Of a stretch of 64,000 nucleotides of DNA, positions 42,616 through 44,714 are shown one piece after another (position 1 is the stretch's first letter; each line of letters opens with the position of its first letter). The DNA lies in contig CAMBMM010000001.1 of assembly GCA_945868825.1 (NCBI GenBank), positions 620,001-684,000 of the forward strand. The letters run 5' to 3'. A program made the translations under genes and the position numbers. Under the pieces are notes generated by a model, which was not told the origin of the DNA, did no database searches, and was given only the letters and a program-made list of their open reading frames with translations. The stretch comes from Sphingobacterium thalpophilum. GTDB taxonomy: Bacteria; Bacteroidota; Bacteroidia; Sphingobacteriales; Sphingobacteriaceae.

Positions 42616-42623
42616 TATTTTTG
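42616..42623 (+). promoter_or_regulatory. Putative -7 box for tRNA-Cys / small-ORF unit
   Basis: TATTTTTG, 16 nt before the tRNA 5' end; no clear -33 element. Confidence 0.45.
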
Positions 42624-42639: not shown

Positions 42640-42710
42640 GGTCGGATGGCCGAGTGGCTAGGCTCAGCTCTGCAAAAGCTGCTACAGCGGTTCGAATCCG
42701 CTTCCGACCT
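42640..42710 (+). tRNA. tRNA-Cys (anticodon GCA)
   Basis: GGTCGGA/TCCGACC acceptor, CAGCT-CTGCAAA-AGCTG anticodon arm, GCGGTTCGAATCCGC T arm, U discriminator; CCA not encoded. Confidence 0.96.
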
Positions 42711-42738
42711 CAAGAAAAAAACTTAAAAAAGAAAGACC

Positions 42739-42918
42739 ATGGGAGTAACTCGTTTAAAAAGAAAAGACAGAAGAAACAAAACTGTTTCTCGTTTAGAAGT
42801 ACAATTTTTGAAAATGGCTCACAACATTGAAGTGGGTAGCCGTTCAAAAGAGAAAGCTAGCAGCCAAGTTTCTAAAAACAATGCTGTTTTGGCTCAAATT
42901 GTAGCTAAAGCGAAATAA
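42739..42918 (+). CDS. Small basic protein (59 aa), ribosomal-protein-like
   Basis: ATG...TAA reads MGVTRLKRKDRRNKTVSRLEVQFLKMAHNIEVGSRSKEKASSQVSKNNAVLAQIVAKAK; 28 nt after tRNA-Cys, followed by a terminator. Missing from ORF track, whose shortest entries are 60 aa. Confidence 0.82.
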   Translation: MGVTRLKRKDRRNKTVSRLEVQFLKMAHNIEVGSRSKEKASSQVSKNNAVLAQIVAKAK

Positions 42919-42963
42919 GTTTCATTGCACCGGCATTTTTGCCGAGAACAATATATAAATCAC

Positions 42964-42991
42964 CCGATTAAGCAATTAATCGGTTTTTTTT
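42964..42991 (+). terminator. Intrinsic terminator after small ORF
   Basis: ccgattaa-gcaa-ttaatcgg-tttttttt. Confidence 0.85.
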
Positions 42992-43012
42992 GTTTAGAAC
43001 AATCAAAGGGAA

Positions 43013-44038
43013 TTAATTTTGGGATATGCCTTTATTAATGGCTTTAATTAAACCCGGGCCTTCGTAAATAAAGCCGGTATACACCTGAACCAGACTGGCA
43101 CCTGCCTTTAGCTTTTCGAGTGCATCTTTGGCAGAGTGAATACCTCCCACCCCAATAATTGGAAAAGTATTTTTAGATTTTTTACTCAGGTAGGTAATTA
43201 CATCGGTAGCACGTTGGCTTAGTGGCTTTCCACTGAGGCCTCCGGCTTCATCTGTTAGTGTTTTAGCAGAAACTAAGCCCTCTCGATTTAAGGTAGTGTT
43301 GCTGGCTATCACACCGGCAATTTTGCTTTCTAATACAATTTCTACAATATCATCTAATTGAGCATCGCTTAAATCGGGGGCAATTTTTAGCAAGATAGGT
43401 TTAGATAGGCCTCCTTTGCTATTGCGCATTTGCAAGGTTTTGAGAATATGTGTTAAGGGCTCTTTCTCTTGCAATTCACGCAAACCGGGCGTATTGGGCG
43501 AACTCACATTCACCACAAAATAATCCACCACATCAAACAAACGATCAAAACAAATCACATAATCGTCTACCGCCTTATCGTTTGGCGTGGCTTTATTCTT
43601 ACCAATATTTCCACCAATAATCAATCCGTTACGTTCTACACGGCTTAGTCGATCGGCTACCACGTCAACCCCTTGGTTGTTAAAACCCATACGATTGATT
43701 AAGCCTTCATCGGCAGGCAAGCGGAACATACGAGGTTTAGGATTTCCGGGCTGAGGCAAAGGCGTTACGGTTCCTATTTCGATAAAACCGAAACCGAAAC
43801 TGGCTAAATCTTCTATATACTCTGCATTTTTATCGAAACCTGCGGCTAGGCCAACCGGATTTTTAAAGGATAAGCCAAACACTTCTTTTGCCAATTTGGG
43901 GTCATTTAGCGTGTAAATCGATTGTATTGCTTTTCTAAAAACACCAATCGAGCACGTTGCTTTTAACCCTGCCATTACCCAATGGTGAACTCGTTCTGGA
44001 GAAATTAAAAAAAGAAAGTATTTAACTATGCCGTACAT
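43013..44038 (-). CDS. pyrD: Quinone-dependent dihydroorotate dehydrogenase
   Basis: [81 protein letters not shown]. Confidence 0.96.
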
Positions 44039-44111
44039 GCTGTAAAAATAGGGTTTTAGATTGAATAGACAATAAATGCGAATCAGATACGTATATTGTG
44101 TCAGAATATTT

Positions 44112-44714
44112 ATGAAAGTTCTTAAAAATAGTCTTTGCTTTTTTCTTTTAGTATTGAGTTTATCCTCTCATGCCCAAAATTGGGATATTCGCCTATTAGA
44201 AAAACTGAATGGTGCTCCCCAATCACAAGACAAAACCTGGCAATTTATTTCTAACAGCTCGGGCACAATAGATTTAGCCTTACCAATAGGGCTTTTTATT
44301 GCAGGATCTCTAAAACACGATGCAACTATTAAAAATTATGGAGCAAGCATGGGCGTTTCGTTTTTAGCCAATGAAGTGATGACAATTTTACTCAAAAGAA
44401 CCTTCCAGCGGACCAGACCATTTGAAGCTTATCCAGAATTAATTTTCAAAAAAGGTACTGGTGGAAGTTATTCCATGCCATCGGGGCATACATCATCGGC
44501 ATTTTCTACAGCTACTTCACTTAGCTTAAACTTTCGCAAATGGTATGTAGTTGCACCCGCCTATACCTATGCAGCAGCCGTGGGTTACTCACGCATGTAT
44601 TTGGGTGTACATTACCCGAGCGATGTACTTGTAGGTGCACTACTCGGTTCTGGCACCGCTTATCTTACTTGGAAAATAAATAAAAAACTACAAAATAAAC
44701 GAAAAAACAGGTAA
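44112..44714 (+). CDS. PAP2 superfamily phosphatase with signal peptide
   Basis: [45 protein letters not shown] 44112 preferred over 44076. Confidence 0.92.

Follow-up and report, generated by a model that had tools for sequence, protein, structure and literature searches.

What does the short, basic open reading frame (ORF) lying between a tRNA-Cys and a terminator in Sphingobacterium thalpophilum encode, and does its product belong to the ribosome? We analyzed the locus within a 64,000-nucleotide stretch of contig CAMBMM010000001.1, hereafter the window, in which an earlier note had described the tRNA-Cys, an ATG-initiated ORF and a terminator as one unit and had proposed that the ORF is bL38, a large-subunit protein reported from the Flavobacterium johnsoniae ribosome, or else another lineage-specific ribosomal factor. 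The unit was borne out, with the 59-aa sequence of the ORF as originally read, although the spacer between tRNA and ORF, given as 28 nt, measured 27 nt (Table 1). The terminator is formed by the hairpin CCGATTAA-gcaa-TTAATCGG followed by 8 T, with a folding energy of -8.9 kcal/mol, and the ORF occurs once in its own 1.66-Mb genome. The list of translation-related neighbors (TrmH, ABC-F, tRNA and a second ABC-F) was accurate in part but had left out two genes, named here from sequence, that separate the ORF from the second ABC-F: a PyrD-like gene at 43013-44038 (-) and a PAP2-type phosphatase-like gene at 44076-44714 (+).

Table 1. Features of the tRNA-Cys/ORF unit in the window
Feature	Position	Strand	Details
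-7 promoter element TATTTTTG	42616..42623	+	upstream of tRNA-Cys/ORF unit; matches TAnnTTTG
tRNA-Cys, anticodon GCA	42640..42711	+	ARAGORN; Rfam RF00005, 59.4 bits
A-rich leader, 27 nt	42712..42738	+	A at -3, -6, -12, -13 from start codon
ORF, ATG start, 59-aa basic protein, N-terminus MGVTRLKRKDRRNK	42739..42918	+	
Intrinsic terminator, 8-bp hairpin + T8	~42963..42991	+	

The ORF was present in 58 of 60 other Sphingobacteriaceae genomes, a sample whose named members include Mucilaginibacter, Pedobacter, Sphingobacterium and Olivibacter. The two genomes lacking it are 60% and 71% complete, and it was found in every one of the 60 that is at least 76% complete. All 81 ORF sequences compared begin with ATG and span 56-61 codons, with a median pairwise dN/dS of 0.16, so that the conserved homologs under purifying selection on which the earlier note had staked the ORF were indeed found. 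Constraint is uneven along the protein, dN/dS being 0.07 in codons 1-27 versus 0.23 in codons 28-48, and within the family the N-terminus is nearly invariant letter for letter. On this comparative evidence the ORF is a real gene, far from a chance reading frame; short, basic, single copy and carried by essentially all near-complete Sphingobacteriaceae genomes, it has the profile sought in a lineage-specific ribosomal protein.

Linkage to tRNA-Cys, which had been put forward as a check on the unit, held at every Sphingobacteriaceae locus inspected: a same-strand tRNA-Cys lay upstream of the ORF in 29/29, 13/13 (same family) and 76/76 loci, these sets partly overlapping, at a distance of 23-41 nt (median 29, 76 loci). 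The sequence TAnnTTTG, the Bacteroidota -7 promoter consensus (PMC7366714), occurred in the 45 nt preceding tRNA-Cys in 75/75 relatives, against an expectation of about 0.03 for a stretch of that length, and in none of these 75 did it occur in the leader between tRNA and ORF. A terminator-like site followed the stop codon within 160 nt in 68 of 74 relatives. With a promoter before tRNA-Cys, none in the leader and a terminator after the ORF, tRNA and ORF almost certainly share a single transcript, which is probably processed at the 3' end of the tRNA. Among relatives, 76% have A at -3 of the leader and 84% have it at -6; A at -3, -6, -12 and -13 is a positive determinant of initiation in F. johnsoniae (PMC6847099).

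Profile searches extended the family beyond Sphingobacteriaceae. Iterated profiles matched 85/380 and 67/291 Bacteroidia genomes in two overlapping samples, nearly always in single copy and with relatives in about 12 further families, while the majority of sampled genomes gave no match, so the gene is not universal in the class. Members share the N-terminal core M[AGS]VTxLKRKxRxNK, and their C-termini differ by group, ending in ...KNNAVLA in Sphingobacteriaceae, in ...SPYKxESGVIxE-like sequences in f11, f39, f53 and f60, and in ...KNVDxExLKxxF in f16, f49 and f68. Homology to the distant families rests on a stretch of 25-50 residues, and the low E-values of the wide searches are partly circular, since those families themselves enter the profiles; the unbiased links are the first-round profile matches at E 1e-12 to 1e-3, and matches in f25, f27 and f10 near E 1e-3 are to be disregarded. 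Judged from sequence, the upstream neighbor is an arginine-decarboxylase-like gene (speA) in f11, f39 and f50 and a threonine-aldolase-like gene adjoins in f49, while hisS is divergent from the small gene in f16 and f68 (loci L151-L155 and L196-L201). Because neighbors vary among families, the gene is independent of the tRNA-Cys context. A YfcE-like phosphodiesterase gene often lies 3' of the small gene in f16 and also in f49, a context common to both.

The order TrmH/tRNA-Cys/ORF is nevertheless retained in G085, a genome from another family that comprises 490 kb in a single contig (L203:4903-5170). Its homolog is full-length and recognizable, with a profile E-value of 1.9e-4 before its sequence had joined any profile, and G085 is the one case of retention in a reduced genome that we found. 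In reduced genomes of this kind, mostly housekeeping genes survive. Conservation across many Bacteroidia together with retention at 490 kb argues that the gene probably encodes a lineage-specific ribosomal protein that has been missed. The G085 genome is AT-rich, and a phosphoglycerate-kinase-like gene lies downstream of its small ORF.

In two f53 genomes the homolog bears a C-terminal helix-hairpin-helix tail (L216 in G245 and L217 in G342) that the window ORF lacks. Across 83 aa, the tail of the one f53 member compared shares 58% identity with that of bL21 in f52 (L248), which is of the HHH_5-like type (PF14520) seen on bL21 in some Bacteroidia. The f53 bL21 examined, that of G245, is tailless, which suggests transfer of the tail between bL21 and the small protein. 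Confinement of the tail to ribosomal proteins was rejected: it also occurs on a membrane-anchored protein encoded in those genomes and was weakly matched in photosynthetic reaction-centre proteins, so that the tail alone is no proof of a ribosomal home. Its distribution suggests a module mobile between ribosomal and other proteins.

The ORF product has a computed pI of 11.4 and a net charge of +11, within the range computed for full-length family members (pI 10.3-11.4, net charge +9 to +13). AlphaFold predicted an all-helical protein with helices at residues 5-36 and 40-58 (mean pLDDT 84, and 90-97 across residues 1-30). Foldseek returned no structural match to this model, as expected for isolated helices, and no PDB chain was matched by the ORF sequence or by three progressively wider profiles. 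Pfam and NCBIfam scans of the ORF matched no family and revealed neither a known domain nor a catalytic motif, and scans of distant members gave chance matches below threshold only. Our literature search found no paper printing the N-terminal motif and no Bacteroidota ribosome paper naming the protein.

Small ribosomal proteins of other lineages offered points of comparison. Members of the bS22/mS38 family (COX24_C, PF08213) are often unannotated; like the ORF product they are very short, rich in arginine and lysine, and helical. However, neither the ORF nor its relatives matched PF08213, by which we rejected this identity, and a search for COX24_C in 15 Bacteroidia genomes gave none above the cut-off. 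In Borrelia, bS22 was revealed by cryo-EM density (PMC10618245). The protein bTHX (Thx, PF17070) is likewise small, basic and lineage-specific, but the ORF has no Pfam match, and identity with THX was rejected for want of one to PF17070; that model also found nothing in the ORF's own genome, a weak test for Bacteroidota given that among controls it matched only Thermus.

The proposal that the ORF is bL38 (DUF4295, PF14128; F. johnsoniae 7JIL chain 4) had an evident appeal, both being small basic proteins of the same phylum and bL38 lying outside the classical ribosomal set, yet it is wrong. The genome encodes a separate DUF4295 protein well outside the window (G000:C1:34430-34567), which matched the 7jil_4 'L38' chain at 8e-8, whereas the ORF matched neither PF14128 nor that chain. 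Comparison of the ORF and DUF4295 family profiles gave a probability of 0.2%, which also disposed of a link through the 'SPxK' stretch. Folds differ as well, since bL38 contains beta strands (PMC10618245) and the ORF product is predicted to have helices only. The distributions differ too: F. johnsoniae has bL38, while its family is without the ORF. The gene was detected in 0/101 genomes of Flavobacteriaceae (f48), a search that had no in-family positive control but used the same profile that finds the gene in many families; genus g76 of f48 was recognized as Flavobacterium by its near-identical bL21. Absence from Flavobacteriaceae fits the absence of the protein from the F. johnsoniae structure, the single solved Bacteroidota ribosome of identifiable lineage.

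We favor, with a probability of about 60%, the reading that in Bacteroidia the ORF product serves as a small, lineage-specific ribosomal protein or as a factor constitutively bound to the ribosome. This corresponds to the other half of the original suggestion and is the best supported reading, while binding to the ribosome itself is what we infer. Far stronger constraint on the N-terminal half, the basic helix, the single copy, retention at 490 kb and the bL21-like tail all speak for a ribosomal role. Against it, no solved chain matches by sequence or fold, and Flavobacteriaceae have no detectable homolog. Much of the same anatomy, namely a basic helix and a single-copy gene among translation-linked neighbors (TrmH, tRNA-Cys), could also belong to a factor for ribosome assembly, hibernation or rRNA/tRNA processing whose binding to ribosomes or their precursors is only transient. 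We hold this to be unlikely but worth keeping in mind: the constitutive-looking tRNA promoter and the 490-kb retention are more in keeping with a structural component than with a stress factor, and a catalytic motif or known domain is missing.

Basic helices are also known in nucleoid and RNA-chaperone proteins, and a strongly basic helical N-terminus that matches no ribosomal family could accordingly point away from the ribosome, to a nucleic-acid-binding protein of one of these kinds. To us this is the more doubtful for an N-terminus that is close to invariant in one family and recognizable class-wide, which suggests a fixed binding site, and for the tail in common with bL21, which points to the ribosome. 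A leader peptide or spurious ORF, there only through its position behind tRNA-Cys, would account for the shortness of the ORF and its place within a tRNA transcript, but hardly deserves credence, since the amino-acid sequence is conserved at a dN/dS of 0.16 and across families with other neighbors (speA, hisS, the threonine-aldolase-like gene), and the terminator directly after the ORF leaves no downstream gene to regulate.

Cleavage of the tRNA-ORF transcript at the tRNA 3' end would free an mRNA whose unstructured, A-rich leader is suited to initiation independent of the Shine-Dalgarno sequence. If the product is indeed ribosomal, residues 1-27, the conserved basic part at its N-terminus with a helix starting at residue 5, would insert into rRNA, with the divergent second half of the protein lying on the ribosome surface. 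Coupling to tRNA-Cys may be a local convenience that supplies a strong growth-linked promoter, as in other families the gene follows speA or is divergent from hisS.

Translation in Bacteroidia does without Shine-Dalgarno pairing, and their unusual ribosomes are known mainly from Flavobacterium, with F. johnsoniae serving as the structural model for the ribosome of the phylum. We put at roughly even odds that an undescribed ribosomal protein, present in between roughly a fifth and a quarter of the Bacteroidia genomes sampled and in about 12 families, has been overlooked until now, because annotation skips its gene and the model ribosome comes from a lineage without it. Should this be true, a conserved extra component is missing in Flavobacteriaceae, the reference structure does not represent the class as a whole, and Sphingobacteriaceae ribosomes are predicted to show extra helical density. 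The protein would also give annotation pipelines a new family to model, one for which neither Pfam nor NCBIfam has an entry. In PDB 9I5T, a second ribosome entry of Bacteroidota type, chain 15 is labeled only 'DUF4295 domain-containing protein' and belongs by sequence to the bL38 family.
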